From Phycisphaerae bacterium (GTDB lineage Bacteria; Planctomycetota; Phycisphaerae; Sedimentisphaerales; Anaerobacaceae), in assembly GCA_030619925.1 (NCBI GenBank), contig JAUXAL010000041.1, positions 1 through 36,946 of the forward strand: a stretch of 36,946 bases of DNA, read 5' to 3'. Of the stretch, positions 16,420 to 30,872 are shown one piece after another. Within the stretch, counting starts at the first letter, position 1. Every line of letters begins with the position of its first letter. Under the pieces are notes generated by a model, which was not told the DNA's origin, made no database searches, and saw nothing but the letters and a program-made list of their open reading frames with translations. Made by a program: the position numbers and the translations under genes.

Positions 16420-16496
16420 CTGTATCCTTTCATTAGTTTTTCAGAAAAGACCGGCCATTATTGGAACTATTGGGTTGGCGTTTTACCATTTGCAAC

Positions 16497-18017
16497 CTAC
16501 AGCGTCCATCGGTTGTGATACCTGGGTCGGATATACTTATCGGCTTCAGAGACATTGGTCGCCTTCATATTCGGCCCATCCCAAAACAGTTTTTCTCCCG
16601 TGCGCAGAGCAACATTGCCGAGCAAAATAACTTCGGTCATCGGGCCTGCGTAGTCGAAGTTTGAACTTGGCGGCCAGGGCGACCAGGCCGAAGGCCTGGA
16701 CAGGATCCCACCCGCCGTTGGCGGGCTGGACTGGATCAAACCGGCCTTCGGCCGGCCTGCCTTACAGGCATTAATCCAGTCTCTATGATGTCCTTTGGAC
16801 CTGGCAATCGTTTTCGGCGGTAGTTTGTATGCTTTCATCTTTGTCTCGGGTATCAGCCGGGGGCTCCCACCCCACCCGGCACACATTATTTTGCCCTTGT
16901 CGCCTACAAAGAGAATGCCGTTACCGCTGCCGGTCAATTCCCGGCCCGGCTCCAGCTCGTCCGGTCGTGGCGGCATTATCCCGCCTCCATACCATGTTAC
17001 TTTGACCGGCGGCATGCCTTCACGGGCAGGAAACTGATAATAGACTATGGACGCCAGCGGCGTAGTCTCAGGATTAACTCCCGTCGAATTGGCTTCCACA
17101 CTTGTTGGATGGCCCAACTTCAGTGCCCAGAAAGCAGGGTCCATATTATGACAGGCCATATCTCCTATAGCGCCAGTTCCGAAATCCCACCAGCCTCGCC
17201 AATTATATGGTGCGTACGCTAGGTGATAAGGCCTTTTCGGGGCCGGGCCGAGCCACAAATCCCAGTCCAATCCGGACAGCACCGGCGGTGTCTCTTTCGG
17301 CCTGGCTGTTCTATATCCGGCCCAGTCAACTCCCGTGCGGCTCCATGAATGCACCTCTCTCACATGGCCGATTGCTCCGTCCCATATCCATTCGCAGGTA
17401 AGCCGAATACCTTCATCGCTGTGACCGTGGTTGCCCATCTGAGTAGCAACTCCGGCTCGACGTGCTGCTTCAGTGATTTTGCGGGCTTCGTAAATTGAGT
17501 GCGTCAGAGGTTTTTCACAATAAACGTGTTTGCCGCTCTTAATTGCCGCCATAGTAGCTATCGCGTGTATATGGTCTGGTGTTGCTACCAGCACGGCATC
17601 GATACTTCTTTCTTTTTCCAGCATTTTGCGAAAATCAATGTAGCAAGCACAGCTCTTATACCTGGCTGTTGATTTCCGACCGGCGTAGTGTTTTTCAACA
17701 AGCTCCAAGGCCGGCTTGCGCCCCGCTGTTCCACCGTAGTAGAAGCGACTGTAATCGGCCTGCTCGTTGACATCGCAAACCGCCATCACTTGAACATCCG
17801 AATGCTGAAGGAGTCCCTTTATGTTATGTATACCCTGGCCACCAGTACCGATAATTGCTATGTTAAGTTTTTCGCTCGGTGCAGTGTAGCCACTGCCTCC
17901 CAGTACGTATCGAGGAATAATGGTAAATGCGGCTGCCGTTGCCGCTGCGCCGCTCAAGAAATCGCGTCTGGAGACTCCTGCACCTTTTGAACCGGTAATG
18001 TTGTTATGACATTTCAT
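16497..18017 (-). CDS. Gfo/Idh/MocA-family oxidoreductase, Tat-exported, with a palindromic insertion
   Basis: A 506-residue NAD(P)-dependent sugar oxidoreductase. The ATG at 18015-18017 is chosen over one 30 bp upstream because AAGGGA lies just ahead of it. The Tat motif SRRDFLSG lies near residue 17. Rossmann motif NIAIIGTGGQGIHN follows at about 50, and CEKPLTHS near 160 carries the conserved Lys of the EKP motif. After the Gfo/Idh C-terminal domain the family normally continues directly into SNFDYAGP; here about 30 extra residues (from KAGLIQSS to SPWPP), encoded by the hairpin cluster at 16683-16769, sit before that phrase without breaking the frame. It likely oxidises, or reversibly converts, a sugar released by the co-located enzymes. 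Confidence 0.92.
   Translation of the reverse strand: MKCHNNITGSKGAGVSRRDFLSGAAATAAAFTIIPRYVLGGSGYTAPSEKLNIAIIGTGGQGIHNIKGLLQHSDVQVMAVCDVNEQADYSRFYYGGTAGRKPALELVEKHYAGRKSTARYKSCACYIDFRKMLEKERSIDAVLVATPDHIHAIATMAAIKSGKHVYCEKPLTHSIYEARKITEAARRAGVATQMGNHGHSDEGIRLTCEWIWDGAIGHVREVHSWSRTGVDWAGYRTARPKETPPVLSGLDWDLWLGPAPKRPYHLAYAPYNWRGWWDFGTGAIGDMACHNMDPAFWALKLGHPTSVEANSTGVNPETTPLASIVYYQFPAREGMPPVKVTWYGGGIMPPRPDELEPGRELTGSGNGILFVGDKGKIMCAGWGGSPRLIPETKMKAYKLPPKTIARSKGHHRDWINACKAGRPKAGLIQSSPPTAGGILSRPSAWSPWPPSSNFDYAGPMTEVILLGNVALRTGEKLFWDGPNMKATNVSEADKYIRPRYHNRWTL
16683..16769. repeat. In-frame palindromic cluster E1 (four hairpins) in the Gfo/Idh gene
   Basis: Four perfect short hairpins follow each other: CCAGGCC-GAA-GGCCTGG (16683-16699), CCCGCC-GTT-GGCGGG (16711-16725), CCGGCC-TTC-GGCCGG (16741-16755) and GCCTG/CAGGC (16755-16769). 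The first two linkers each contain GGATC, with the GATC sites exactly 30 bp apart (16704, 16734). The first hairpin plus linker recurs unchanged at 27085-27109. Confidence 0.9.
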
Positions 18018-18097
18018 CTCGGTATCCCTTAAACTATTATTTCCCATCAGCTAAGTTCCCGTTTTGCGATCTTTTTGCGGCGTTGACAAATGTCGAG

Positions 18098-20086
18098 CTA
18101 ATCTTCTCGCTTTTCAATGGCCGCTGGAGCACCGAAGATTCTGCTAAGGCGTTTGATGTCAAACTTCGGTTGGCGCTCGTAGGAGTAGACACCGTTTACC
18201 TCCTGTTCAACGTCGGTCAGCTGGGTGTAGGTAAATCCGGAGATGTGCGGATGGTTGAGCAGGATGTCGGTCAGGGCTTTGATCCGGTCTTCCACCTGCC
18301 TTCTTGTTTTACCGTATCCCCAGCTGTTTCGTCCTTTGCCGGCTTTTTCCGGCTGATTGACATAATCTTTTGTCCAGAAGGTCCCGCCGTACTCATCCAC
18401 CACATAGGGTCGCCCTTCGTAGGGAACCGATACTTCAGGAAATCGGACAAAAGCTTTCTCTGGGGAGTCGGGCGACACACCGGCGTAGCGCTGCCTGAAT
18501 GAATCAGGATTCTGGTCGTAATCGTGTACGGTGAAGATGTCTGTCTCCACGTGCACGTAGCCGCTGGCGTCATTGACCGGTCGGGTCGGGTCAAGCGCCC
18601 GTGTTATCGCCACAAGGGATTTAACCGAGCGGCTGTAGGCCTCGTAATTGTCTCTGGCGGCGCCCCTTGTCTCGTTCAATGGCGTCCAGGCCACAATGGA
18701 GGGGTGGTTGCGGTCGCGCACGACCACATCCCGCCATTCGCGTTCCAGGTTGAGAACTCCCTGCGGGTTACCGAAGGAGTGAGTTCCGCCCCAGTCCGCG
18801 AATTCTCCCCACGTCAGATAACCCAGCCGGTCGGCCCAATAGTGAAAACGTTCCTCAAAGACCTTCTGATGCAGGCGGGCACCGTTAAAGCCGGCTGCCA
18901 TCGACATTTCGATATCCGCCTTCAACGCCGCGTCGCTGGGAGCGGTCCAAATGCCATCCGGATAAAAGCCCTGGTCGAGAACAAACCGCAAATAGATGGG
19001 TTTGTTGTTCAGATAAAAGCAGTTGCCTTCAATGTGAAACTTTCGCAGGCCGGCGTAGCTGTTCACCGAGTCCACCACCTTACCGCCGTCGGCCAGTTCC
19101 AGCCGAAGACCATAAAGATAAGGGTCACGAAGGCCCCAGGGACGCAGATTTTTGACACTAAGAACGACAGAATTCCCACTCTTGGCCGAGCCACGCGATG
19201 AGGCGACCTTTTTGCCTCCCGGCGTCAACAGGGTGGCACGGAATTCCAAGCCGGCAGCGCCGGCCTTGATCATGCCCGCCTTCGGCGGGCCGCCATAGTT
19301 GCTCACAAGCGGGGTCAAAACGAAATGCCCCTTGTCCAGGTCCGGCACAATGTGAACAGATTCTAAGAATTGTTGAGGCCTCGCCTCCAGCCAGACGGTT
19401 TGCCATATCCCGGTAACACGTGTGTAAAAAACGCCGTACGACTCCGGGCGCCTGCTCTGTTTACCGGACGGCTGGACTTCTGATAGCACATCATCAAAGG
19501 CATAAACCACCAGATGGTTTTGGCCCTTTTTGACCGCGTCGGTTATCTCAAAGGCAAATGAGACACTACCGCCATAATGGCGTCCAACAGCTTTGCCGTT
19601 GACCCACGCACGACATTCGTAATCCACCGCGCCGAAATGCAGAAATATGCGGTCATCTTTCCAGCTCTTCGGGAGGATGAAAGTCCGGTGATACCAGAGG
19701 GCCTTGATGAAATCCGTGTGTCCTATACCCGATAACTCGCTCTCGACGCAAAACGGCACCGTAATCTTCTTGTTGAATCCGGATGGGCTGTTTTGCCAGT
19801 CCTCTTTTATCCCGACGGCCTCGTGATCCATCGCGAAATCCCATCGGCCGTTCAGATTGATCCAGGCATCCCGCCGAAATTGAGGCTTGGGATGTTCAGG
19901 ACGGGGTATGGGCGGTTTTGTACGTGAGCCCCCCTCCCCAACCGCCTTTGAGCCTGCCATTAGAACACATACAATTAAGATAACAACGCTAACATTCCTG
20001 AAGAGGCCCGCCGAAGGCGGGTTTGATCGAGGCCGGCGCTGCCGGCCCGCAAAGCGGGAACCCAAATAGTCTTTGCCATATCTCAT
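18098..20086 (-). CDS. GH2-family glycosidase (beta-galactosidase/glucuronidase type) with two palindromic insertions
   Basis: A 662-residue exported GH2 enzyme. The ATG at 20084-20086 is chosen because AAGGAG precedes it; the frame is open further upstream without a better start. The sugar-binding domain covers about residues 70-235 (NLNGRWDF, FGAVDYECRAWVNG), the Ig-like domain about 240-350, and the TIM barrel the rest. Glu472 in AWTPLNE is the expected acid/base and Glu565 in VVDEYGG the nucleophile. Two hairpin elements lie inside the frame: one lengthens the basic n-region of the signal peptide (about residues 9-27), the other falls in a loop of the Ig-like domain (PPKAGMIKAGAAG, about 267-279). 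It is the first gene of the leftward run and has a good promoter upstream. Confidence 0.93.
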   Translation of the reverse strand: MRYGKDYLGSRFAGRQRRPRSNPPSAGLFRNVSVVILIVCVLMAGSKAVGEGGSRTKPPIPRPEHPKPQFRRDAWINLNGRWDFAMDHEAVGIKEDWQNSPSGFNKKITVPFCVESELSGIGHTDFIKALWYHRTFILPKSWKDDRIFLHFGAVDYECRAWVNGKAVGRHYGGSVSFAFEITDAVKKGQNHLVVYAFDDVLSEVQPSGKQSRRPESYGVFYTRVTGIWQTVWLEARPQQFLESVHIVPDLDKGHFVLTPLVSNYGGPPKAGMIKAGAAGLEFRATLLTPGGKKVASSRGSAKSGNSVVLSVKNLRPWGLRDPYLYGLRLELADGGKVVDSVNSYAGLRKFHIEGNCFYLNNKPIYLRFVLDQGFYPDGIWTAPSDAALKADIEMSMAAGFNGARLHQKVFEERFHYWADRLGYLTWGEFADWGGTHSFGNPQGVLNLEREWRDVVVRDRNHPSIVAWTPLNETRGAARDNYEAYSRSVKSLVAITRALDPTRPVNDASGYVHVETDIFTVHDYDQNPDSFRQRYAGVSPDSPEKAFVRFPEVSVPYEGRPYVVDEYGGTFWTKDYVNQPEKAGKGRNSWGYGKTRRQVEDRIKALTDILLNHPHISGFTYTQLTDVEQEVNGVYSYERQPKFDIKRLSRIFGAPAAIEKRED
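19250..19290. repeat. In-frame palindromic element E2 in the GH2 gene
   Basis: GCCGGC-AGC-GCCGGC (19250-19264), linker with GATC at 19268, then GCCCGCC-TTC-GGCGGGC (19274-19290). It has the same two-hairpin order as E3 read on the opposite strand, so one gene holds two copies in opposite orientation. Confidence 0.88.
20007..20064. repeat. In-frame palindromic element E3 in the GH2 signal-peptide region
   Basis: CCCGCC-GAA-GGCGGG (20007-20021), linker with GATC at 20025, GGCCGGC-GCT-GCCGGCC (20031-20047), then an overlapping CCCGC-AAA-GCGGG (20046-20058) with AACCCA tail. The tail hairpin matches E6 at 25526 and part of E7 near 28900. Confidence 0.88.
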
Positions 20087-20556
20087 GTTTGGTTTCTCCT
20101 TGTTAAAGGTGACTTGAATTTTCCCCTGCTTGTTCCCGGCAGGGGTCAGTTTCTTGTTCTTACGGGTTTTTCCTCCGTACCATTGCGATAAACCGACATT
20201 CGCCCTATCAAAGCAGGACCCCATTTTGCAAAAAGTCACAAATTGGGAACCCAGTTATCCAGGCTGCTGAGGTCTCATTTCGGGTAATATACCAAACGCA
20301 GGTGATAAACGCAACTACTTCAAATACTACTTTGGGGGCCCAGAAACTATCTTGGCGCTTCGGCAGTTTTCCTTTATGCTATTAGTGCCGGATATTGCCT
20401 ATCTGAGTCTTGCAAATTGTCCGGAAAATTCCGGTTCAAACGAGTTTTTGCTTTCTTTCGCAGTAGCTGCAATGCGAATTAGAAACTGTAAGCATCGGGT
20501 TTTCAACGGTTGTAGTGTCGGCTTTTTTGTACTTGAAGGAATGTGAGGTGATAATT
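20087..20556. other. Divergent control region between the GH2 run and the DUF5107-TPR gene
   Basis: A 470-bp gap without a gene. It holds a leftward promoter candidate (20286-20314) and a dyad CCGGAA-AA-TTCCGG (20421-20434) that could be a regulator site. No convincing rightward promoter was found by eye. Confidence 0.5.
20286..20314 (-). promoter_or_regulatory. Probable promoter of the leftward GH2-GH28 run
   Basis: On the leftward strand TTGCGT (20309-20314) and TATATT (20286-20291), preceded by TGG, are spaced 17 bp, so the -10 is of the extended type. The leader would be about 190 nt. Confidence 0.5.
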
Positions 20557-23500
20557 ATGAGAGGTTTTCTAAAGAATTTCTTTATCGTTTTGCTTTTCAT
20601 TGGGTCGTCTTTAATAATCCCGGGGTCGAGCTGGGCGGACCCCTCGGCTAAGGTAAGGGCCTGGGAAGACACCGTAACAATCCCCACCTACGGATGGGCA
20701 GAAGATATTAATCCCAAGTTCTGGGCATTGGAAGGCCAAGCTAAATTCTCGAGTATAGTCAAAGGCTCGATTGTCTACCCTTATGCGATGCAGGACCATC
20801 TTTACAGAACCATAGCGGATCGAACCTACAAAGCCTTATTTCTTGAAAATGAATACCTGAAAATCATGTGCCTGCCCGAGCTGGGCGGACGTCTGCACTC
20901 GGTTCTCGACAAGACCGAAGGAACCCCAAACCAGATGTTTCATCTCAACAAAGTTATTAAACCGGGTATGATAGCGATGCGCGGGGCCTGGATAAGCGGC
21001 GGGGTCGAGTGGAACGCCGGCCCGCACGGACACACTGTTACCATCCTCTCGCCGGTTGATGCACTTATCGGTCGAAATGCAGATGGCTCAGCCTACCTCG
21101 AAGTCAGTAATCTGGAAAAGAGCCAGCGGACCCGATGGACGGTGCGGGTGACTTTGCATCCGGGAAAGGCCTATCTGGACGAGCAAATTCGCATTTTTAA
21201 TCCTATCGATGCGATAAGCCCCTACTACTTCTGGAACTGTACCGCTTTTCCGAACCGACCGGGTACGCGCTATATCTACCCTATGAGCCTCGGAACAGAC
21301 CATAACGCAGTCAAATTCTTCTCCTGGCCTATTCACGAAGGCAAGGACCTGTCCTGGCTCAAGAACTATCAGACCTGGGCATCGATTTTTGCTGTTGACT
21401 GTACGTTCGACTTTTTTGGGGCCTACGATGTGGATGCGGACCGTGGAATTGTGCAGGTGGCAGACCACCATGAGCTCAGCGGAAAAAAGGCCTGGACATG
21501 GGGAAATTGGGACTTTGGCCTGGTCAGCCAGAAGAACCTGACTGATGACGACGGCCCGTATATTGAGGTCCAAAGCGGGCCGCTGCCGACACAGTCGGAC
21601 TACGGCATGCTGTTGCCGAGGCAAGAAGTCTCGTGGCAGGAATGGTGGTATCCGGTCCATGGGCTGGGCGACGGTTTCGAATACGCCACGAAGGACCTGA
21701 CCGTTCAGACCACCCGCAACGGTAACAAGCTTCAATTGAGTATGCTCGCGACCGGTAAATTCCCAGGCACAATTTGCACCGTTTCCCAAGAGCATGAGGA
21801 GCTTCTCAAAAAGCGCCTGGACCTTTCTCCGAAGAAGCCCCAGGTGCTGACGCTTTCTCCGGCCCCACAGGCGCCCGTCGATGTAACAATCAAGACCAAA
21901 GATGGAATCATCCTGGCTTCCTTCGTTACCCCCCTGCCGATACCTGAGGTTTCTCTACCTGAGCCCTCCAAGTTAATGACAAAACCTGATGAGCAGCTCA
22001 CTTTGGAGGAAAAATTTCTCAAAGGTCGAAAGTATGACCTGGCAACGGACCGCAAGAAGGCCCGTGAGTATTATGAAGAGGCCCTGGCGGAAGATGCTGC
22101 ATATTCGCCTGCGCTGCGTGGTCTGGCGGTGCTCGATATCGAAGCTGGACTTTATAAGAACGCGGCGCGGCGATTGGAAAAGGCTCTGGACCGGGATGCC
22201 GGTGACGGATTGTCGTGGTTCTTCTTGGGGGTTACTCATTTGAGGCTAAGAAACGACAAGGAAGCCCTTCGCTGCGCTTACCAGGCGGTTAGATGCCTTG
22301 GGACCACTTCGCTCGGCTATGACCTGGCCGGTCGTGCCTATATGCGTTTGGGAGATTATTCAAAGGCCGTAGAGACCTTCGAGAAGGCGGTACGGTCGAA
22401 CCCAGCAGACCCCAAGGCGAAAAATCATTTGCTGTTGGCTTTGTATGCTGCGGGGAATACCAAGTCGGCGTACAAACAGGCCAAACACAGAATTGCCCAG
22501 AACCCTACGGACCTGGTTCCAAGGGCGCTTGTGGCGCTGCAAAACAAAAGGCAAATGGCTCGTTTCGTACGGCAAATCCGTGCTTTTGTCGGTGAGGACG
22601 ATTTTCACGTATTGCAAACAAGTCTTGTTTTCGCGAATCTGGGACTGGTGAATGAAGCGGCCAAGCTGCTTTCGGCGGTGTGCGTCGAAGCGGTCCCGCA
22701 AACCCAACGCAGTCCTTTGCCGCTCTATTACCTGGCTTATTTTGAGCACATACAGGCCCAAGAAAAACGTGCGGAGGCTTACTTGAGAAAGGCTGGCAGT
22801 ATTTACAGGGACTATGTCTTTCCCTCTCGCCCTGAAGCTGTGGAGGTGTTCAAATACGCCGTTAAAAAAAATCCCGATGACGCCCATGCACATCTTCACC
22901 TGGGAAATCTTTACGGGCATCTTGGACGGCTTGATGAAGCCCACTGGCATTGGCTAAGGGCCAGCGAGTTGAACCCGTCCCTGAGCATCGCATTTCGGAA
23001 TCTCGGCCTTTATACATGGGTCGTACAAAATGATCTAACGAAGGCTGCGGAGTATTACAAAAAGGCCATCGCCGCCAGCGCCAAGGACCAGACTCTGTAT
23101 CGGGACCTTGCAGATATTCTCCTGGCCGACAATAAACGCCCCGATGCGATAAAAGTTCTCGAATCCACACCGTATGAGAAGCTGCGACGTGCGGACGTTC
23201 TGATTATGCTCGCCCAGGGTTATCTTGATGAGAAGAGGTACACCGACGCCATCGATTTGCTTGAATCTACGTCGTACTTCGTCAACTGGGAGGGCCAGAC
23301 AATCACGTGGGACATATTCAACGAAGCACATGTGGCACGCGGCCGCAAACGCTTTGAAAAAGGGGATTACAAAGCGGCTTTGCAGGACTTTGAAGCAGCT
23401 CTGACCTATCCGGAAAACATTGGCGTTGGTCGGCCGACCCTGCCGCAGGCGGATATGATCGGACGCAGCGTTGCCGGGCCTCAAGAGACATCGGCCCAGT

Positions 23501-23646
23501 ACTGGAGAGGAAAGGCACTGCAGGGACTCGGACGTCTTGAACAGGCGCGTTCAGCTTGGAGGGCCGGCGCTGCCGGCCAGGAGGGTTCAGAGGAACAGAA
23601 CAAATACAGACAACTCTGCACAGAGGCGCTTTTGAAGACAAAGTAG
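20557..23646 (+). CDS. DUF5107 domain plus tetratricopeptide repeats, secreted
   Basis: A 1029-residue protein from the ATG at 20557, preceded by GAGGTG; an ATG 42 bp upstream lacks support. A Sec signal peptide (about residues 1-25) is followed by a DUF5107-type beta-sandwich (about 30-340) with KIMCLPELGGRLHSVLDK, GVEWNAGPHGH, YFWNCTAFPN and EWWYPVHGLGDGF, a fold resembling galactose-mutarotase-like enzymes. Residues about 490-1010 hold at least ten TPR units, for example AAYSPALRGLAVLDIEAGLY. The combination is known in bacteria but biochemically poorly defined; it may bind or process carbohydrates. A hairpin element near the end adds AGAAG. It begins a rightward run with the symporter. 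Confidence 0.88.
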   Translation: MRGFLKNFFIVLLFIGSSLIIPGSSWADPSAKVRAWEDTVTIPTYGWAEDINPKFWALEGQAKFSSIVKGSIVYPYAMQDHLYRTIADRTYKALFLENEYLKIMCLPELGGRLHSVLDKTEGTPNQMFHLNKVIKPGMIAMRGAWISGGVEWNAGPHGHTVTILSPVDALIGRNADGSAYLEVSNLEKSQRTRWTVRVTLHPGKAYLDEQIRIFNPIDAISPYYFWNCTAFPNRPGTRYIYPMSLGTDHNAVKFFSWPIHEGKDLSWLKNYQTWASIFAVDCTFDFFGAYDVDADRGIVQVADHHELSGKKAWTWGNWDFGLVSQKNLTDDDGPYIEVQSGPLPTQSDYGMLLPRQEVSWQEWWYPVHGLGDGFEYATKDLTVQTTRNGNKLQLSMLATGKFPGTICTVSQEHEELLKKRLDLSPKKPQVLTLSPAPQAPVDVTIKTKDGIILASFVTPLPIPEVSLPEPSKLMTKPDEQLTLEEKFLKGRKYDLATDRKKAREYYEEALAEDAAYSPALRGLAVLDIEAGLYKNAARRLEKALDRDAGDGLSWFFLGVTHLRLRNDKEALRCAYQAVRCLGTTSLGYDLAGRAYMRLGDYSKAVETFEKAVRSNPADPKAKNHLLLALYAAGNTKSAYKQAKHRIAQNPTDLVPRALVALQNKRQMARFVRQIRAFVGEDDFHVLQTSLVFANLGLVNEAAKLLSAVCVEAVPQTQRSPLPLYYLAYFEHIQAQEKRAEAYLRKAGSIYRDYVFPSRPEAVEVFKYAVKKNPDDAHAHLHLGNLYGHLGRLDEAHWHWLRASELNPSLSIAFRNLGLYTWVVQNDLTKAAEYYKKAIAASAKDQTLYRDLADILLADNKRPDAIKVLESTPYEKLRRADVLIMLAQGYLDEKRYTDAIDLLESTSYFVNWEGQTITWDIFNEAHVARGRKRFEKGDYKAALQDFEAALTYPENIGVGRPTLPQADMIGRSVAGPQETSAQYWRGKALQGLGRLEQARSAWRAGAAGQEGSEEQNKYRQLCTEALLKTK
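23562..23578. repeat. In-frame palindrome E4 near the end of the TPR gene
   Basis: GGCCGGC-GCT-GCCGGCC, identical to one hairpin of E3 (20031-20047). It encodes the residues AGAAG inside the final TPR region. No GATC linker is attached. Confidence 0.85.
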
Positions 23647-23685
23647 CCCCCGCTGCTTCGATTTTGCGAAGCAAAACGGCGGGGG
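23647..23685. repeat. 39-bp GC-rich palindrome immediately after the TPR stop codon
   Basis: Outer stem CCCCCGC/GCGGGGG and inner stem GCTTCG/CGAAGC. Its reverse complement recurs at 28805-28843 inside the GH36-like gene with two differences in 39 bp. No T-run follows, so it is not a typical terminator, although a hairpin here could protect the transcript end. Confidence 0.88.
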
Positions 23686-23698
23686 TCAACATTGTAGA

Positions 23699-23927
23699 GG
23701 ACAGAGGACAGAAAACAGAGGACAGAGAACAGAAAACAGAGGACAGAAAACAGAGGACAGAAAACAGAGGACAGAAAACAGAGAACAGAGGACAGAAAAC
23801 AGAGGACAGAGGACAGAGAACAGAGAACAGAGGACAGAGGACAGAAAACAGAGGACAGAGGACAGACAATCTGACTTCTGACTTCTGACTTCTGACTTCT
23901 GACTTCTGATTTCTGATTTCTGTAGTC
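23699..23927. repeat. Two heptanucleotide tandem arrays
   Basis: Positions 23699-23866 hold 24 back-to-back copies of RRACAGA (mostly GGACAGA, AAACAGA, GAACAGA). After 5 bp, 23872-23927 holds 8 copies of TGAYTTC, the last degenerate. With the palindrome before it, this fills the 291-bp gap between the TPR and symporter genes. Long open frames read through it are artefacts of the repeat. Confidence 0.95.
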
Positions 23928-23937
23928 AGGAGATAAC

Positions 23938-25557
23938 ATGGATTTGAGTACTATTGGAATCGATACCAACTTTGGTCTCGTTGACTGGTGTATTGTCGCC
24001 GGCTATCTAATTATCATTGTAGCGGTTGGCGTTTACATAAAACGGTATATCCGCAATGTGACGGATTTTATCGTCGCCGGCCGGGGCTTGAAAACATTTC
24101 TGGCGACCGCGACAATGGTCGGGACCGAATTGGGTCTGGTTACGGTCATATACTCGGCCCAAAAGGGATTTACCGGCGGCTTCGCCGCCTTTCACATAGC
24201 ATTGGCCTCTGCTATTGTAGCGCTAATCATAGGACTGACCGGGTTCATAGTGGTACCGTTGCGAAGAATGAAGGTGATGACTATCCCGGAGTTTTACGAG
24301 AGGCGTTTCGGGCGCGGCGTTCGCATCTTGGGGGGAGTCATATTAGTCTTCTCCGGCATCCTCAATATGGGAATGTTCCTTAAGGCCGGCTCGATTTTTG
24401 TGATGGGCATTACCGGAATGACTTCAGAACTGGAGCTTAAAATCATAATGACTACGCTGCTGGCTATGGTTTTGCTCTATACCACCCTCGGCGGAATGGT
24501 CTCAGTTGTGGTATCAGACTACATACAATTTGTGCTTCTATCGTTTAGCCTTTTGGCTATGTGTATATTATCCGTTAAGCAGCTGAGCTGGCAGAGCATT
24601 GTTGAGACCGTGTCCCTGCTGAAAGGCCAGGCTGGTTTCGATCCATTTCACGGTGAAGGTTTCGGCGGCTCTTATGTGGTATGGATGTTCTTTCTGGGCC
24701 TGGTTAATTGTGCGATTTGGCAAACCGCGGTGATACGTGCCTGCTCGGCTGAAAGCATCCGTGTCGTTAAGAGGCTCTATATATGGTCTTCTATCGGATT
24801 TCTCATTCGAAATCTGCTGCCATGTTTTTTGGGGATAAGTGCTTTGGTCTACATAGCACACAATCCGTCGCTTAAGAAGGTTTTTTTGCCAGAAGGCGCT
24901 GAAGCCGACCCGCAATTGACTCTGATGGCTATGCCGGTGTTCTTGAGTCAAATACTGCCTGTCGGGCTGCTTGGGTTCGTTACGGCTGGTATGCTGGCAG
25001 CTTTCATGTCCACCCATGACAGTTACCTTTTGTGCTGGAGCTCGGTAGTGACGCAGGACGTGGTGGCACCATGCTTCAAGAAAGGTTTGTCCTCGAAAAC
25101 ACGGCTGTTATTGACACGAATTTTTATCGTAGCTATCGGCATTTTCATTTTGGTTTGGGGATTGTGGTATCCTCTGGGTCAGGATTTGTGGGATTATATG
25201 GCGATTTCCGGCGCCATTTACTTTACCGGGGCCATATCCCTATTGATCTTTGGGCTTTACTGGAAACATGCCAGCAAAGTCGGGGCCTATCTGGCCTTAA
25301 TCTCAGGTTTCTGCGCAGTAGTAGGATTGAAACCTGTCAGGGACATGGTCTTTCGTCTCGCTTCGGTTTTAGGATTAGACACGGTTCGAGCCCAAGCTTA
25401 TGTGAATAGCATACCAAGCGCGAAACTGAGTGCGATTGTCGGACTGACTATTATAGCACTTTCGATGGTACTGATGGTGGCCGGTTCCCTAATATTTCCC
25501 GATCGTGGTCCATCTTTGGAAGGCCCCCGCGCAGCGGGAACCCAGCATAAGGAGTAA
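23938..25557 (+). CDS. Sodium:solute symporter (SSS family)
   Basis: A 539-residue inner-membrane protein with about 13 hydrophobic segments, expected to import a sugar or other small solute with Na+. The N-terminal helix DWCIVAGYLIIIVAVGVYI, then DFIVAGRGLKTFLATATMVGTELG and VPLRRMKVMTIPEFYERRFG, follow the SSS pattern. AGGAGATAAC precedes the ATG. The C-terminal tail (EGPRAAGTQHKE) is encoded partly by a palindromic element. The next gene starts 6 bp after its stop. Placed among glycosidases, it is the likely importer of their products; no TonB/SusC-type porin is in this window. Confidence 0.93.
   Translation: MDLSTIGIDTNFGLVDWCIVAGYLIIIVAVGVYIKRYIRNVTDFIVAGRGLKTFLATATMVGTELGLVTVIYSAQKGFTGGFAAFHIALASAIVALIIGLTGFIVVPLRRMKVMTIPEFYERRFGRGVRILGGVILVFSGILNMGMFLKAGSIFVMGITGMTSELELKIIMTTLLAMVLLYTTLGGMVSVVVSDYIQFVLLSFSLLAMCILSVKQLSWQSIVETVSLLKGQAGFDPFHGEGFGGSYVVWMFFLGLVNCAIWQTAVIRACSAESIRVVKRLYIWSSIGFLIRNLLPCFLGISALVYIAHNPSLKKVFLPEGAEADPQLTLMAMPVFLSQILPVGLLGFVTAGMLAAFMSTHDSYLLCWSSVVTQDVVAPCFKKGLSSKTRLLLTRIFIVAIGIFILVWGLWYPLGQDLWDYMAISGAIYFTGAISLLIFGLYWKHASKVGAYLALISGFCAVVGLKPVRDMVFRLASVLGLDTVRAQAYVNSIPSAKLSAIVGLTIIALSMVLMVAGSLIFPDRGPSLEGPRAAGTQHKE
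25526..25544. repeat. In-frame palindrome E6 at the end of the symporter gene
   Basis: CCCGC-GCA-GCGGG followed by AACCCA, the same hairpin-plus-tail type as at 20046-20064 and 28900-28918. It encodes part of the last residues of the transporter. Confidence 0.8.
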
Positions 25558-25563
25558 CGAGAT

Positions 25564-25746
25564 ATGAATTTTTGGATTAACTTTTGGACAATCTTTTTTA
25601 TAGCGAGCCTTGCTATTTTCGCAGTCCTCGCTGTAGTCGTTTCAATCGGCGGTTTTTTCAACATGCTATCACTGTTCAAGACTCTTACGATGCAGCATGA
25701 CCAGGAGCAGGAGAGTACTCGGGAAGAAGGTCATGAACAGACGTGA
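25564..25746 (+). CDS. 60-residue single-span membrane protein next to the symporter
   Basis: No family was recognised. Residues about 5-40 (from INFWTIFFIASLAIFAVLAV) form one long or two short membrane spans, followed by a charged tail (HDQEQESTREEGHEQT). AAGGAGTAACGAG lies upstream, the start is 6 bp after the symporter stop, and the end overlaps the next gene by 14 bp. Tight linkage suggests translational coupling and perhaps a small subunit or stabiliser of the transporter. It could be overlooked by automated annotation because of its size. Confidence 0.65.
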   Translation: MNFWINFWTIFFIASLAIFAVLAVVVSIGGFFNMLSLFKTLTMQHDQEQESTREEGHEQT

Positions 25747-26905
25747 AAGGTTAATGGCGACTTTGCGCGGTGAACCGGTCGACCGGCCCGCAGTCAATTT
25801 CTATGAAATAGGCGGATTCCAGATTGACCCGTCCGACCCGGACCGGTTCAACGTCTATAATGACCCATCCTGGCAGCCTTTGCTACAACTGGCCGAGGAA
25901 CAAACCGACCTCATTCGCATGCGCAGCCCTGTCAGGCCACGCTCCCACGAAACAGATGTCCCACCTGACAAGCTGGACACTAACAGCCGCTATGACGAGT
26001 TCTTCAAAGTAGAGAAATACGCCGACGACGGATACAGTTTCCATCGCACAACTCTAAAAATTGGTAACAAAACCATGACGTCGCTAACACGTCGCAGCCC
26101 TGATATTGATACTATCTGGACATTAGAACATCTGCTCAAGAACACAGACGACCTAAAGGCCTACCTGGAGCTGCCGGACGAGGCTTTCGCCGAAGAGCTT
26201 GATATAGCCAGCCTGGTCGAAGAAGATAAAAAGCTCGGCGATCGGGGCATCGTCATGATTGATACCGAAGACCCAATTTGCGCCGCTGCTTCTCTTTTCA
26301 GTATGGAAAACTTTACTATTGTTGCCCTGACCGAGCAGAAGCTGTTCCATCGTTTGCTTGAAAAGCTTTCCCGCCATATACACGCCAGGACGCAAATCTC
26401 GGCGGAGGCGTTCGGCGGCCACTTATGGCGCATATACGGGCCGGAGTATGCTACTGAGCCTTACCTGCCGCCGCATCTTTTCAAAGAATACGTGGTGCGT
26501 TACACCGGCCCAATGGTGGAAGCTATCCAAAATCACGGCGGGTTTGCCCGAATTCATTGCCACGGCAGGATTCGTGCCGTTCTTGATTACATTGTCGAGA
26601 TGGGCGCCACAGCCATTGACCCGATTGAGCCACCTCCACAGGGGGACGTGGAGCTTGCGTACGTCCGCCGCGAGTACGGCAGGGAACTGGTCCTGTTTGG
26701 AAATATAGAGTTGGCCGACATAGAGAACACTGAGCCGGCCGAATTTGAAAAGGTCGTCGAAAAGAGCCTCAATGATGGAACCAATGGCCGGGGCAAAGGC
26801 TTTGTCCTGATGCCGTCCGCAGCTCCAATCGGCCGGAAAATCACACCCAGAACGATGGCGAATTATGAAACAATGGTACGGCTGGCTGCTAACTTCAACT
26901 CATGA
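25733..26905 (+). CDS. URO-D superfamily protein (uroporphyrinogen decarboxylase / MtaA-like)
   Basis: A 390-residue cytoplasmic protein. The ATG at 25733 is preferred because GAAGAAGG precedes it and NRRERLMATLRGEPVDRPAV is the classic start of this family. ARIHCHGR (His275, Cys276, His277) near the C-terminal third lies where corrinoid:thiol methyltransferase members hold zinc ligands, followed by GATAIDPIEPPPQGDVEL and FGNIE. It is not likely to be the haem enzyme itself, since many planctomycete paralogues occur in catabolic loci. Demethylation chemistry on a methylated substrate is one possibility. Its last 40 codons are duplicated at 28546-28665. Confidence 0.88.
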   Translation: MNRRERLMATLRGEPVDRPAVNFYEIGGFQIDPSDPDRFNVYNDPSWQPLLQLAEEQTDLIRMRSPVRPRSHETDVPPDKLDTNSRYDEFFKVEKYADDGYSFHRTTLKIGNKTMTSLTRRSPDIDTIWTLEHLLKNTDDLKAYLELPDEAFAEELDIASLVEEDKKLGDRGIVMIDTEDPICAAASLFSMENFTIVALTEQKLFHRLLEKLSRHIHARTQISAEAFGGHLWRIYGPEYATEPYLPPHLFKEYVVRYTGPMVEAIQNHGGFARIHCHGRIRAVLDYIVEMGATAIDPIEPPPQGDVELAYVRREYGRELVLFGNIELADIENTEPAEFEKVVEKSLNDGTNGRGKGFVLMPSAAPIGRKITPRTMANYETMVRLAANFNS

Positions 26906-27022
26906 TAGGATATGAAAGTTTACGGAGGTTATATTTGACAGGGTCTAAAGAGGCACAGCGTCGAAGACCACCGCCTCAAAAGGCTTTAGTTCGAACGTGT
27001 GTTCTCTGCCTGCAGATAGTAC
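26786..27022. repeat. Direct repeat C, copy 1
   Basis: It contains the last 40 codons of the URO-D gene and, after a divergent spacer, 78 bp matching the end of the leftward GH36-like gene. Copy 2 (28546-28804) has the same order and orientation. The first 120 bp align without gaps at an offset of 1760 bp. The copies flank the Ntn-hydrolase gene. Confidence 0.9.
26945..27022 (-). pseudogene. Relic 3' end of a GH36-like gene
   Basis: Read leftward, 25 codons plus TAG encode VLSAGREHTFELKPFEAVVF and a five-residue end. This parallels VLSAGKEHTFELRPFAVLVF at the end of the intact gene at 28728-30872, with about six replacements. Nothing further of that gene precedes it. The match ends exactly where the palindromic cluster begins in the intact gene. 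Confidence 0.85.
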
Positions 27023-27070
27023 TATTGCCAGGAGTAACAAATTTTAATAATTATATGAGGAGCAAAGATC

Positions 27071-28570
27071 ATGGGATTGAACAGCCAGGCCGAAGGCCTG
27101 GACAGGATCAGAACCGCCTTCGGCGGCTACTTGTTTTTGGTACTTTTCTTGCTAATGCCCGGGTCGTCGGAGGCCTGCACTGTAGGTTGTGCTATGGGTA
27201 ATGCCACACAAGACGGACGTCCGCTGGCGTGGAAGAACCGTGACGGAGGAAAGAGCAGACACAGGCATTTTGTCATGTACAAGACCGGCAGCACATATAG
27301 TTTTCTTGGAATTGGTCCCGATCTGGATAGCCCCAAGATGGGACTCAATAGTGCCGGCTTAGCCCTGGCAAACGCCACTATCGAGGAGTTCAAGACGGAA
27401 GGTTGGAAGTACTCGAATCACCAGCAGTTCAAGGACTATATTCTTGGAGAATGTTCTACGATTGTCGAGGTGCGCGAGGCGATTATTGCCGTCACCGGCG
27501 GGAACGCGAGCTATTGGCCCAAGCCAATCAGTCTGTCGTCTTCCTTTTGTGATGCCCAAGGATATGCCTGCCACTGGGAATTATGCGCAGATATCTATTA
27601 CGAATACGACCCCACCAATGATAATCGGCTCCGGCAATTCCCGATGCAGTTTGTCGCGCGTGATAATGACTCGCAAAGGCAAACCGGTCATGTTGACAAT
27701 CCCCGCCGAGCCGGCGCCAGGTACCGCAAGGCCGTTGTCAACATGCGCAACTCTGCCGCTGCCGGAGGAATTACTATGGCCGACATGTTCAACGTCGTCT
27801 CCCGCTCGGGATCACCAGGATTTGAGGACCCGGAAGACATAAGCTCAAATGAAAATACCATTGCAGTCATGGTTGCACATGGCGTTAATGCAGGCGAGGA
27901 CCCTCGAATTGCTACCATGTGGGTGGCGTTGGGAAATCCGGACTATACGTGTTTCGTGCCCTGCTGGGTTGCCCTGGAAAACGATATTTCTCCACGCGCG
28001 TCTTCCAACGACACCGACAGCACGCTCAGCGGCGCCTCGGAGAAGCTCTACAACAGCAAGGAAGGCAAAGACTACGACCAATACATCAACCATCTTATTG
28101 CTCCGGTAGAGACAAATATCATTGAAGCGGTCACCGCAGCAAGAGCACAATGGTTTGAAAACGGCTTCGACCTCGAACAAGGCAGACGAATCCACCACGA
28201 GGCATGCGAGACGGCGTGGCGGACCATGAATGCCATGTGTCAGGGAACCGGAAGAAACAGAAATGATACCCCCACCCTCACGAGAATAGAGGCGTCCAGC
28301 AATGGCCTGCGCGTTGATTTCCGTTGCAGCGTCAGTGATACCGACGGACACATTACGGGATACTCCTGGGATTTCGGGGATGGGAACTGTTCACCGTCGG
28401 CGTCACCGGTACACAGATACTCCAAAGGCGGGACCTACCTCGTTCGATGCCGCGTGACAGACAACGGAGGCTCCCGGAACTCGAAATGGATCTATCTTAC
28501 GGTGAAAGAACGTGCTGGGAGTCCGTGCTACGCCGTGAAGCCCACGGCCAGGGCAGGGGCTTCGTCCTGA
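27071..28570 (+). CDS. Secreted Ntn-hydrolase (peptidase C45/acyltransferase-like) with PKD domain
   Basis: A 499-residue exported protein. Removing the signal peptide after alanine 35 would expose cysteine 36 (SSEA then CTVGCAMGNA), the N-terminal nucleophile expected of Ntn-hydrolases. GRPLAWKNRDGG near residue 50 is the conserved arginine-aspartate region, as in C45/AAT and bile-acid-hydrolase-type amidases. GLNSAGLALANATI follows near 95. A PKD-like module (YSWDFGDGN, about residues 395-480) ends the protein. The signal peptide n-region carries palindrome E5, and the last seven residues (ARAGASS) run out of frame into the URO-D relic, so the original C-terminus may be lost. GAGGAG 8 bp upstream sets the start. 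Confidence 0.82.
   Translation: MGLNSQAEGLDRIRTAFGGYLFLVLFLLMPGSSEACTVGCAMGNATQDGRPLAWKNRDGGKSRHRHFVMYKTGSTYSFLGIGPDLDSPKMGLNSAGLALANATIEEFKTEGWKYSNHQQFKDYILGECSTIVEVREAIIAVTGGNASYWPKPISLSSSFCDAQGYACHWELCADIYYEYDPTNDNRLRQFPMQFVARDNDSQRQTGHVDNPRRAGARYRKAVVNMRNSAAAGGITMADMFNVVSRSGSPGFEDPEDISSNENTIAVMVAHGVNAGEDPRIATMWVALGNPDYTCFVPCWVALENDISPRASSNDTDSTLSGASEKLYNSKEGKDYDQYINHLIAPVETNIIEAVTAARAQWFENGFDLEQGRRIHHEACETAWRTMNAMCQGTGRNRNDTPTLTRIEASSNGLRVDFRCSVSDTDGHITGYSWDFGDGNCSPSASPVHRYSKGGTYLVRCRVTDNGGSRNSKWIYLTVKERAGSPCYAVKPTARAGASS
27085..27126. repeat. In-frame palindromic element E5 in the Ntn-hydrolase signal region
   Basis: CCAGGCC-GAA-GGCCTGG (27085-27101), linker with GATC at 27106, then CCGCC-TTC-GGCGG (27114-27126). 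The first hairpin and linker match E1 base for base over 25 bp, although E1 is read from the opposite strand in its gene. Confidence 0.9.
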
Positions 28571-28665
28571 CGCCATCATCAGCTCCAATCGGCCGGAAAA
28601 TCACGCCGAGGATGATGGCGAATTATGAAACAATGGTACGCCTGGCCACTAATTTCAACTTATGA
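28546..28665 (+). pseudogene. Relic 3' end of the URO-D gene
   Basis: Frame GQGRGFVLTPSSAPIGRKIT and the following 19 residues up to TGA correspond to GRGKGFVLMPSAAPIGRKIT at the end of the intact URO-D gene, with about ten replacements in 39 residues. The relic has no upstream domain and is fused to the 3' end of the Ntn-hydrolase gene in another frame. Confidence 0.88.
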
Positions 28666-28671
28666 GAGAGT

Positions 28672-28714
28672 GTGACAGAGGACAGAAGACAGATAATCGA
28701 TTTCTGAATTCTGA
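28672..28714. repeat. Short heptamer array
   Basis: A few RRACAGA units (GGACAGA, AGACAGA) followed by TTTCTGAATTCTGAC. It is a miniature of the 23699-23927 arrangement, in the gap between two convergent gene ends. Confidence 0.65.
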
Positions 28715-28727
28715 CGTTGTGCAAAGC

Positions 28728-30872
28728 CTAAAGAGGCGTTGCATCAAAGACCAGCACTGCAAAAGGCCTCAGTTCAAAGGTATGCTCTTTGCCTGCGGAT
28801 AGTACCCCCGCCGTTTTGCTTCGCAAAGCCGAAGCAGCGGGGGCCATATCCGCGTCTTTTCCCCGCCTTCGCGGGGACAAGTTTACCCCTGCGAGGGACC
28901 CCGCCTTGCGGGAACCCAAAGCAGGGGGGCTCTTCAGAGAATACCTCTGTGCTGCGCCTTTGGGCAGCTCGAAGGCTTTGCCGATATCTATCGTGATCCT
29001 GCGCGGTTTGTCATAAGGATTACGCAGCGACAGGATACCTTTTCGTTTCGACCACGATGCCCAACCGTAAATTTCGCCCTCGGCTGGATCGCCCCCTATC
29101 CAGTGAGTATCGACCAGCACGTCCATATTCTCGCGGGACCATTTCGCCGCCTCGGCCAAAGCGTCCCAGTCCTGCGGCCGCATCATAGAGGGGGTAATGT
29201 ACAGCTCCTGGCAGTTAGTTCCGCTGGCGAAGAATGCGCGAATGTCTTCGACAAGACCATCGACCTGGTTTGGAAGTCCGTGATTGGCTAACATAATACC
29301 CTGGGTCATAAGTGAATTGAGCGGATACAAAGGTGCACGCCTCACGACATTATGGTACGTCTCTTTGTCGCGGTAAGTGATCTGCTGTTGTCGTTTCGAG
29401 CCCCAGCCGTGAGTGTGCCAATCTCTCCCTGAGCGCCACGTCGAGTCGCCGTACCACAGCCAATAAGGTGACGACCATGTACCTGTTGTGATGTTCACGA
29501 AGACGTCAGGTCTGACCTGGCGCAGCTCGCTGATAAGTCGCAGCAGGGCCTGCATATCGCGGACGAATTCAGGACCAGTTCCAGTTGGCCTGCCACCTGC
29601 GCCGATACCATCGAACTTAAAGTAGTTCAACCCGTACTCCCGGACCATGTTGGCACAGACATCACGAAACCGAGCGTAATATTTAGGACCAGCCAGCGAG
29701 AAACCGCTTTTGTTTGTTTCGAAACTCTGCTCCCGGCCGTATTTGAGCCTTTCCTGCTTTGCATCGCCGTAGCCGCCGAAAGGAGAAAGCCAGGCACCCA
29801 AAGCCGAGTCATATTTTTCCGCCACCCGTTGCAGCGGGGCAAACCCATCGGGAAAAGCCTTATGAAACTGCCACAATGAGGCAGTGTCGTCCCACCCGTC
29901 GTCCAAAGCGAACGAATCCATCATTACGCCGCGCCGTTTGACCAGCTCTTTTCCAAACAGTTCGATTACTTCCGAACATTGGCGCTGCTGTATTATCTCA
30001 GCCCGGTAGCCGATATCGTACCAGCTGTTGTAATGCAGGAACGGCCTGTATGGGTGCACCCGCTGGCGTTCGATATAATACAAAAAGCCGCGGCGCAACT
30101 GACCTTGTGGAACAACGCCGATAACCGAACTCTGCACAAGCGGCTCGGCCGGCTTTAGCGGAGCGCTGCAAGGCAAACTGCATCGAAAACGACGCAAGTT
30201 CCCTGGCAATATTTGACTCTTCGACAACGGGTGCTCATAAGCGAAGAATATATTACCCGCCACTACGGGCGAGCCGTCCACGGTGCCCATTACCTCGGCA
30301 TGCGGCGCTGTCAGCTCCAGCAGCACTATTTCTTTTATGTTGATTGGTTTATTCTTAGTCGAGAAGGTTACCTGTTGCCGCACATAATTTGAACCATCGC
30401 GCAATATCGCACGCCATTGGACTTCGAGGTTTATGTTAGGTGAACCAAGCACAACAGTAATCTGCTTACCGCCGAATCGCTCCGCCAATCGGCACGAGTT
30501 GCGCTTTGGCTCCAAATCTTTCATCTTTGGCTTGCCAACGATTCTCAGATCGGAGGATTTCACAGTTTGTCCGCCGTTTAGAACGAGCTGAAAGCATTCG
30601 GCCTGTCTTAGCGGGAGTGTGGTTGCCGATAGCTTATCGACCACACGTTTCGGCTTAAGTCGGCCTTCGGAAATGCTCCAGATACACGAGAGAATTTCAT
30701 TCTCCAGGACAAACTCGCTTTGGCTTACCTTACCCTGGCCATCACCCGGCGCAGGGCCTGGAAATTCAAGCCCCCCCGCACGACCGGCCAGGAATAACAC
30801 GACCAAAACCACCACACCCAGGAACAACCTTACTGAGTTTTGAGTTTTTAGTTTTGAGTTTTTAGTTTCCAT
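28728..30872 (-). CDS. GH36-like alpha-galactosidase, secreted, with palindromic insertion
   Basis: A 714-residue exported protein of the clan GH-D alpha-galactosidase type. A Sec signal lies at about residues 15-35, a beta-sandwich domain at about 45-270, and a TIM barrel at about 275-600 with HYNSWYDIG, DSFALDDGWDD and YFKFDGIG; the Asp in KFDG is the expected nucleophile. A C-terminal beta domain ends in VLSAGKEHTFELRPF. Between YSLKSP and VLSAG about 43 foreign residues (ALGSRKAGSLAG to RSKTAG) are encoded by palindromic cluster E7. The N-terminal ETKNSKLKTQNS is encoded by a heptamer array. A minimal AAGG precedes the ATG. Substrate is probably alpha-galactoside, but unverified. Confidence 0.85.
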   Translation of the reverse strand: METKNSKLKTQNSVRLFLGVVVLVVLFLAGRAGGLEFPGPAPGDGQGKVSQSEFVLENEILSCIWSISEGRLKPKRVVDKLSATTLPLRQAECFQLVLNGGQTVKSSDLRIVGKPKMKDLEPKRNSCRLAERFGGKQITVVLGSPNINLEVQWRAILRDGSNYVRQQVTFSTKNKPINIKEIVLLELTAPHAEVMGTVDGSPVVAGNIFFAYEHPLSKSQILPGNLRRFRCSLPCSAPLKPAEPLVQSSVIGVVPQGQLRRGFLYYIERQRVHPYRPFLHYNSWYDIGYRAEIIQQRQCSEVIELFGKELVKRRGVMMDSFALDDGWDDTASLWQFHKAFPDGFAPLQRVAEKYDSALGAWLSPFGGYGDAKQERLKYGREQSFETNKSGFSLAGPKYYARFRDVCANMVREYGLNYFKFDGIGAGGRPTGTGPEFVRDMQALLRLISELRQVRPDVFVNITTGTWSSPYWLWYGDSTWRSGRDWHTHGWGSKRQQQITYRDKETYHNVVRRAPLYPLNSLMTQGIMLANHGLPNQVDGLVEDIRAFFASGTNCQELYITPSMMRPQDWDALAEAAKWSRENMDVLVDTHWIGGDPAEGEIYGWASWSKRKGILSLRNPYDKPRRITIDIGKAFELPKGAAQRYSLKSPPALGSRKAGSLAGVNLSPRRRGKDADMAPAASALRSKTAGVLSAGKEHTFELRPFAVLVFDATPL
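28805..28927. repeat. In-frame palindromic cluster E7 in the GH36-like gene
   Basis: Three units: a 39-bp palindrome (28805-28843) almost identical to that at 23647-23685 in reverse; CCCCGC-CTTC-GCGGGG (28861-28876); and CCCGC-CTT-GCGGG with AACCCA tail (28900-28918) inside an outer stem CCCCTGC/GCAGGGG (28886-28927). The reading frame of the enzyme passes through all three. Confidence 0.88.
30834..30868. repeat. Heptamer array encoding the N-terminus of the GH36-like protein
   Basis: Five exact-length units of TKAGTTT (TGAGTTT or TTAGTTT) on the + strand, ending one codon inside the leftward start at 30870-30872. Confidence 0.85.

Follow-up and report, generated by a model that had tools for sequence, protein, structure and literature searches.

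Introduction

The closest described counterparts of the repeat reported here are the Rickettsia palindromic elements (RPEs). In the published accounts they are palindromic, dispersed and found in frame within conserved protein genes, with some sites common to several species and some copies lying in exposed regions of the protein (PMC2229807, PMC10969869, PMC3767692). A Rickettsia guanylate kinase carrying such a palindrome is described as translated and active, with a changed affinity for its substrate (PMC2229807). In this study we focus on a GATC-centred two-hairpin element first noticed in a 36,946-nt contig of a Phycisphaerae bacterium (assembly GCA_030619925.1, contig JAUXAL010000041.1; the whole contig is hereafter the window), which shares with RPEs the palindromic structure, the dispersal, the in-frame position in conserved protein genes and the existence of sites common to several species. 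An earlier note on the window, made from its letters alone, had drawn this parallel, which holds as regards in-frame insertion. RPEs are about 100-150 nt long and described from Rickettsiales, whereas the element here is about 40 nt long, is built of two hairpins with GATC and belongs to a planctomycete; RPEs were compared by description, not by sequence. RPE-4 and RPE-6 are moreover reported as CGTC-tagged (PMC3733652), whereas our element is untagged.

The GTAG/CGTC class of repetitive extragenic palindromes (REPs) is likewise made of short hairpins, often paired and present in many copies, some of them intragenic (PMC3733652). According to the same account, intragenic REPs occur in replication, repair and tRNA-synthetase genes, and also in bacteria of the Planctomycetes-Verrucomicrobia-Chlamydiae (PVC) group (PMC3733652). 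Unlike these REPs, the element described here has no tag and no adjoining REP-associated tyrosine transposase (RAYT) that we could find, lies in genes in at least 60 of its 130 copies when a loose rule is applied, and replaces about 4 nt of its target. Double-hairpin elements of fungal and algal organelles consist of two adjacent GC-rich hairpins and are mobile and compact; by this general description they resemble our element, although they are organellar and it is bacterial. Miniature inverted-repeat transposable elements (MITEs) are also non-autonomous, dispersed and palindromic, but as described they are longer, with terminal inverted repeats and mostly with target duplications (PMC3733652, PMC2229807), whereas our element shows no duplication.

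No description of a GATC two-hairpin element was found in the open-licence literature. In-frame palindromes in Rickettsia and intragenic REPs are thus known; an untagged planctomycete hairpin pair with an unusual signature, 40 nt exchanged for 4, is new. As the element works like RPEs and REPs but lacks the tag that defines REPs, we regard it as a distinct variant among known kinds. Many of its copies lie inside genes, essential ones included, where each adds about 12 codons and leaves the frame unbroken.

Results

Structure and copy number of the element

The window is contig C65 of a 4.02-Mb genome (code G000) in 141 contigs, 92.8% complete. The unit of about 40 nt comprises two 6-bp hairpins with 3-nt loops, joined by a 10-nt linker with a central GATC. 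Aligned copies read CCCGCC-GAA-GGCGGG, then the linker, then a second hairpin such as GCCGGC-GCT-GCCGGC or CCCAGC-GTT-GCTGGG; in some copies (Gfo/Idh, 16683-16755, and GlnRS) a third hairpin is chained on. Both hairpins could be delimited in 79 copies scoring 44 bits or more; in these, arm length is 5-8 bp, with one of 10, and the loop-to-loop distance is 25 nt in 62. The linker contains GATC in 73 of these copies, and in 119 of all 130 sites. The earlier note had rightly seen short-armed hairpins with 3-nt loops recurring between genes and on both strands; they are GC-rich.

The half-element pattern CCGCCNNNGGCGGNNNNGATC has 71 exact matches in the genome, and the reversed-pattern control has none. 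A covariance model (CM) built from 26 copies and run on the genome returned 149 rows (from the best 150 of 3367 candidates scored); merged by hand over the two strands, and with one further site, these give at least 130 distinct places on both strands. This figure is a lower bound, as about six more copies came to light when the fetched stretches were scanned. The copy number is far above chance.

The hairpin arms covary. In 150 of 215 aligned matches, 243 cells are changed on both sides of a pair and 17 on one; paired cells make up 97.7% (78.7% in shuffles), and both-side cells number 60.9 in shuffles. Slid controls of the pair counting collapse. The counts are inflated, however, since the structure guided the alignment and some copies enter it with matches on both strands. 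That one-sided (G-U) changes are so few suggests that constraint or copying acts on the DNA, and as the arms co-change almost only by Watson-Crick swaps, we infer that the element moves as DNA. An outer stem closing both hairpins was considered and dropped, flank complementarity being mostly within that of shuffles (best z 2.6, for one tested pair). The curated covariance models of Rfam gave no match at gathering score in window 16000-29200.

Reading frame inside genes

About 2 kb was fetched on each side of the copies, and codon usage was scored independently in 210 nt of each flank. Both flanks are clearly coding on one strand at 29 of the 130 sites, and in all 29 they share the same frame with no stop. 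Among the remaining sites, 5 lie between opposite strands, 41 are coding on one side and 55 on neither; these weak classes include true in-gene sites, for example in a MoxR-like gene. In silico removal of 1, 2, 4 or 5 nt produced a frame shift in 29/29 cases, and removal of 3 nt in none. Random windows from the same stretches (n = 3000) gave 830 in the same frame, 9 shifted, 38 opposite and 2123 weak, so that copies with both flanks coding (29/130) are only mildly rarer than such windows (830/3000). Were insert lengths random and all frame-shifting or stopped inserts lost, about 10-15 of 130 would be expected, by simple arithmetic from the window counts rather than by simulation and assuming that non-coding copies are not lost.

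Under a looser rule (same best frame, open, open reading frame of at least 150 codons, one flank above threshold), at least 60 of the 130 sites lie in genes, spread along the gene length and in both orientations (28 and 32). Where the best frames of the flanks agree, 78 of 79 sites are open. Of the 60 in-gene copies, 54 are read in one of the four frames that escape the TGA in the consensus TGATC(A), the phase being taken from the first CM position and approximate for copies of unusual length. This agrees with the earlier note's proposal that the element tolerates open frames on both strands; that such frames are selected for is not shown by these counts. In a relative, G035, 32 sites were examined; both flanks are coding in 6, and 6/6 are in frame. 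The inserts are rich in Gly, Ala, Pro and Arg.

Empty sites, net gain and target loss

Comparison with homologues, which come from other genera and lack the insert where this genome has it, gave the following gains; gene names are presumptive throughout, assigned from sequence motifs with no family search behind them.

MurD: +20 residues; 11 homologues without the insert
GlnRS: +26 residues; 4 homologues without the insert; G013 has +13
DnaA: +12 residues; 16 homologues without the insert
E2 acyltransferase: +13 residues; 11 homologues without the insert
Methyltransferase-like protein: +12 residues; 5 homologues without the insert
CarB: +12 residues; 10 homologues without the insert
C21:2301: +12 residues; 6 homologues without the insert
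C54:60337: +13 residues; 8 homologues without the insert
TPR-like protein of C126: +12 residues; 3 homologues without the insert; G035 filled
ECF-type sigma factor: +13 residues; 3 homologues without the insert
C72: +13 residues; 3 homologues without the insert
GltD-like protein: +12 residues; 4 homologues without the insert
Sulfatase-like protein: +12 residues; 1 homologue without the insert

Among the matches listed, five compared genes, then twelve, had one match apiece in their own genome. Repeat-to-repeat matches (L132, L117/L148) were not counted. The gain per gene is 12 or 13 codons, and 26 for the three-hairpin forms (Gfo/Idh, GlnRS). The net gain was tabulated at 30 two-hairpin sites, 19 from this genome and 11 from G035: 22 sites gain 36 nt, 7 gain 39 nt and 1 gains 33 nt, all multiples of three, which answers the insert-length check that the earlier note had proposed. 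This set leaves out sites with ambiguous alignment (C54:67865, C90:22428 and KDH, C110:16670), longer arrays or other families (MurD, GlnRS, Gfo/Idh, GH36), and the G035 sites L336:835, L328:2299 and L330:720.

At 19 sites with clean hairpins, the element, its arms being counted up to 6 bp, is longer than the net gain; the difference is 4 nt in 9 cases, 3 nt in 4, 5 nt in 3, 1 nt in 2 and 6 nt in 1. All 19 thus lose 1-6 nt of target, and none shows a duplication. The clearest cases come from G035 and its congener G082. Between them, a 40-for-4 swap with clean hairpins is seen at five sites (the C91:5148 homologue, AspRS and L335 with one each, and a single gene with two), and a further one, with one imperfect hairpin, in a vWA-like gene. 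One such junction reads TTAGACAA(C/T)AAAATA[40 nt or GTTA]CTCGATTC. At the non-coding sites of G035 the flanks gave no alignable empty site.

Sites in the window

The GATC element occupies five places in the window:

16682..16755, minus strand: three-hairpin element in the Gfo/Idh gene (16497-18047, minus strand); hairpin scan and CM match; net +78 nt (+26 residues)
19249..19290, minus strand: two-hairpin GATC element in the GH2 gene (18098-20239, minus strand); CM 65.1 bits; net +36 nt (+12 residues)
20007..20047, plus strand: two-hairpin GATC element in the N-terminal region of the GH2 gene, adjoining a family B hairpin; CM match and start-codon context
23440..23479, plus strand: decayed two-hairpin element in the TPR gene (20515-23646, plus strand); CM 30.7 bits; net +36 nt (+12 residues)
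27084..27126, minus strand: two-hairpin GATC element at codon 5 of the Ntn-hydrolase gene (27071-28570, plus strand); CM match and start-codon context

Homologues were compared for the Gfo/Idh, GH2 19250, TPR and GH36-like sites. The Gfo/Idh insert is absent from 10 homologue rows from 7 loci, paralogues included (protein, with DNA also compared). The GH2 19249 insert is absent from the 5 closest homologues; in one of two further homologues at 36% identity it is missing too, and the other is ambiguous. The TPR insert at 23440 is absent in 7/7 homologues, a comparison also made on DNA. The elements at 20007 and 27085 lie between the chosen start codon, preceded by AAGGAG or GAGGAG, and a signal-peptide-like core.

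The earlier note had counted seven in-gene elements as one family and held that conserved protein was interrupted in Gfo/Idh and in the GH36-like gene. Four of the seven places carry the GATC element (16682, 19249, 20007 and 27084), and the interruption is borne out in Gfo/Idh and also in GH2 at 19250. The remaining three do not carry it. The TPR hairpin at 23562 was taken for an insert but sits on native residues, the true TPR insert at 23440-23479 having been overlooked, and the hairpins at 25526 and in the 28805 cluster belong to other palindrome families, described below. Its observation is thus partly confirmed and its interpretation supported, the phenomenon being larger than it described.

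23562..23578, plus strand: hairpin on native TPR residues (GAAG), no insertion; 7/7 homologues align ungapped

Distribution

A hundred genomes were surveyed, the best 65 candidates being scored in each under stricter filters. The CM matches at E <= 1e-5 in 11 of the 100, this one included, all of one family; none of 39 genomes of the same order outside that family matches, and, apart from this genome, only G035 is rich in the element. Full elements occur in five named records, all metagenome-assembled genomes of Phycisphaerae/Planctomycetota, three of them in the window's own family, and in the searches made here full elements were found in planctomycetes only, in agreement with the planctomycete origin put forward in the earlier note. 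Matches in other phyla (L081, L083, L084, L086, L087, L090, L092) reach 22-32 bits, against 41-58 in planctomycetes, with no second hairpin visible by eye, and were set aside as chance. A link with viruses was also rejected, two viral contigs having half-sites only.

Other palindromes and repeats

Further palindromes lie in and around the same genes of the window:

20046..20063, plus strand: family B hairpin CCCGCNNNGCGGGAACCC; genome pattern count
25526..25543, plus strand: family B hairpin in the symporter gene, 6 codons ahead of its stop; genome pattern count and gene context
28804..28844, plus strand: family C palindrome in the GH36-like gene; inverted copy at 23646-23686
28860..28877, plus strand: further GC-rich hairpin of the GH36-like insert cluster; hairpin scan
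28900..28917, plus strand: family B hairpin in the GH36-like gene (28728-30872, minus strand); genome pattern count and homologue comparison

The family B hairpin CCCGCNNNGCGGGAACCC has 53 copies in the genome (control 0), several of them within 100 nt of a contig start, and may be the end of a longer repeat. Family C consists of two inverted 41-nt copies (23646-23686 and 28804-28844), 95% complementary. The GH36-like protein is about 30 residues longer at the 28805-28917 cluster than 7/7 homologues. Between the TPR and symporter genes (23668-23922) lie tandem arrays of 7-nt units (AGAGGAC/AGAAAAC and TCTGACT). Two diverged direct repeats of 143 and 78 nt link window 26776-27022 and 28536-28805; the 78-nt repeat covers the GH36 C-terminus, and its copy at 26945 is without the palindrome that follows at 28804. 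In MurD, a different short repeat, read as SIENRASRIEH, also seems to be inserted.

Discussion

The copies probably make up a family of non-autonomous mobile palindromic elements, mobility being indicated by their dispersal and by the empty sites of homologues. The frame test across the genome and these empty sites likewise support, at the level of sequence, the earlier note's idea of a mobile in-gene palindrome that keeps the frame. The element would move as DNA, and its insertion would remove a few target bases, most often 4, without target duplication. Copies that cause a frame shift, end translation early or hit the protein core would be lost, and the survivors would be translated into Pro/Ala/Gly/Arg-rich loops, probably at the surface, where they would be tolerated.

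A further proposal, possible but tentative, is that the element is frame-neutral. Insertion would swap a 40-nt hairpin pair for about 4 nt and so add 12 codons (36 nt) by construction, and as only one consensus frame per strand contains a stop, coding DNA would be colonised almost as freely as non-coding DNA. The gain of exactly 36 nt at 22 of 30 sites would suit this, as would a number of copies with both flanks coding above the 10-15 expected by the arithmetic given earlier.

Several points weigh against a mobile family as just outlined. Transposition was not seen, and no moving machinery was identified at the four Y1 loci examined. Some sites are common to different genera, as in a PQQ-like gene shared with G013, although for most genes compared the sharing with other species that the earlier note had set as a refutation is not seen; in GlnRS the insert of G013 differs and is decayed. 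Of 25 G035 sites compared with this genome, 10 had no match and 15 were comparable, and 4 of these 15 are filled here too, two of them near-identically. Such common sites could be old insertions kept by descent, transferred, or repeatedly drawn to a preferred site. Around the two near-identical ones the DNA is about 80% identical, and the congener G082 is empty. The similarity of these two genes to G035 is 0.82 for this genome and 0.82 for G082 in one, and 0.80 and 0.83 in the other; common descent is compatible with this, since this genome and G082 resemble G035 about equally. It seems unlikely that G082 regained its native sequence through exact loss, because the element replaces a few target nucleotides. 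Transfer, repeated insertion or constraint on the element may each account for these sites.

The target loss is deduced from lengths and flanks, the empty-site relatives having at most about 87% protein identity, and for CarB and for C54:60337 individual relatives differ by a residual 1 nt from the site's other relatives, which we attribute to alignment gaps. Since only coding sites supplied net lengths, selection and mechanism cannot be told apart. In a structure model of MurD, the predicted local distance difference test score (pLDDT) is about 50 over the insert and mostly 70-93 elsewhere, being low also in five other short segments. This may hint weakly at a flexible loop, but is equally to be expected of a stretch absent from the alignment. 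A model of Gfo/Idh (mean pLDDT 57.7) was too poor for use.

As a separate observation, the vWA, TPR and MoxR-like gene regions of G000 C91 and G035 C153, which apparently match, are element-rich in both genomes at mostly different positions, a regional hot spot.

The element might instead be an ordinary member of the GTAG/CGTC REP superfamilies moved by a RAYT/Y1 (HUH) transposase, given its paired hairpins, its high copy number and the intragenic copies described for REPs (PMC3733652). Indeed, the genome has four Y1 transposase genes, one of them beside GTAG-tagged hairpins. We nevertheless judge this origin unlikely. Neither the outer stem feet (searched to 6 nt) nor the linker shows GTAG/CTAC in any of the 79 well-delimited copies, CGTC or its complement stands at only 11 of 158 outer ends, and a hairpin scan found no copy of the element at the four Y1 loci (about 0.6-1.5 kb per side, shortened by contig ends), although a RAYT gene may have been missed in a genome of this completeness. 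Moreover, loss of target bases is not expected of an IS200/IS605-type insertion. Two of the Y1 loci have hairpins of their own, GTAG-tagged GGTGGGGCTTGCCCCACC at L010 (C33:581-952) and five similar ones of CCCTGCGGTGCAGGG type, about 36 nt apart, at L011 (C9:18846-19127).

Rather improbable as well is that copied element DNA was captured by end joining at breaks whose ends had lost a few bases. The small, slightly variable target loss (1, 3, 4, 5 or 6 nt at the 19 clean-hairpin sites) without duplication would suit it, but the loss is centred on 4 and the element ends are exact, which is more regular than break capture predicts.

Hairpins in conserved genes also recall, in outline, the mobile bypassing elements (byps), and the inserts could be skipped, or removed after transcription like introns, leaving normal proteins. 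This is very improbable, since skipped inserts need no frame, yet 29/29 are in frame and open, and net lengths are multiples of three at all 30 tabulated sites. That the palindromes arose in place by template switching within each gene, without mobility, would explain the paired swaps in the stems but is scarcely credible: unrelated genes, on either strand, carry one 40-nt layout with almost the same sequence, and aligned homologues show no precursor.

A mobile family thus being preferred, the route by which palindromic elements enter genes, which the published accounts consulted leave unsettled for the Rickettsia cases, can be approached in a lineage where filled and empty sites number in the dozens, among them sites in DnaA, MurD, CarB and two tRNA synthetases. 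Any enzyme that may be proposed must account for the insertion signature, in which about 40 nt enter, about 4 nt leave and nothing is duplicated. For annotation, the element is a warning that lineage-specific loops of 12-26 residues may be mobile DNA. For the proteins themselves, the inserts amount to a natural insertion-scanning experiment on conserved members of the proteome.

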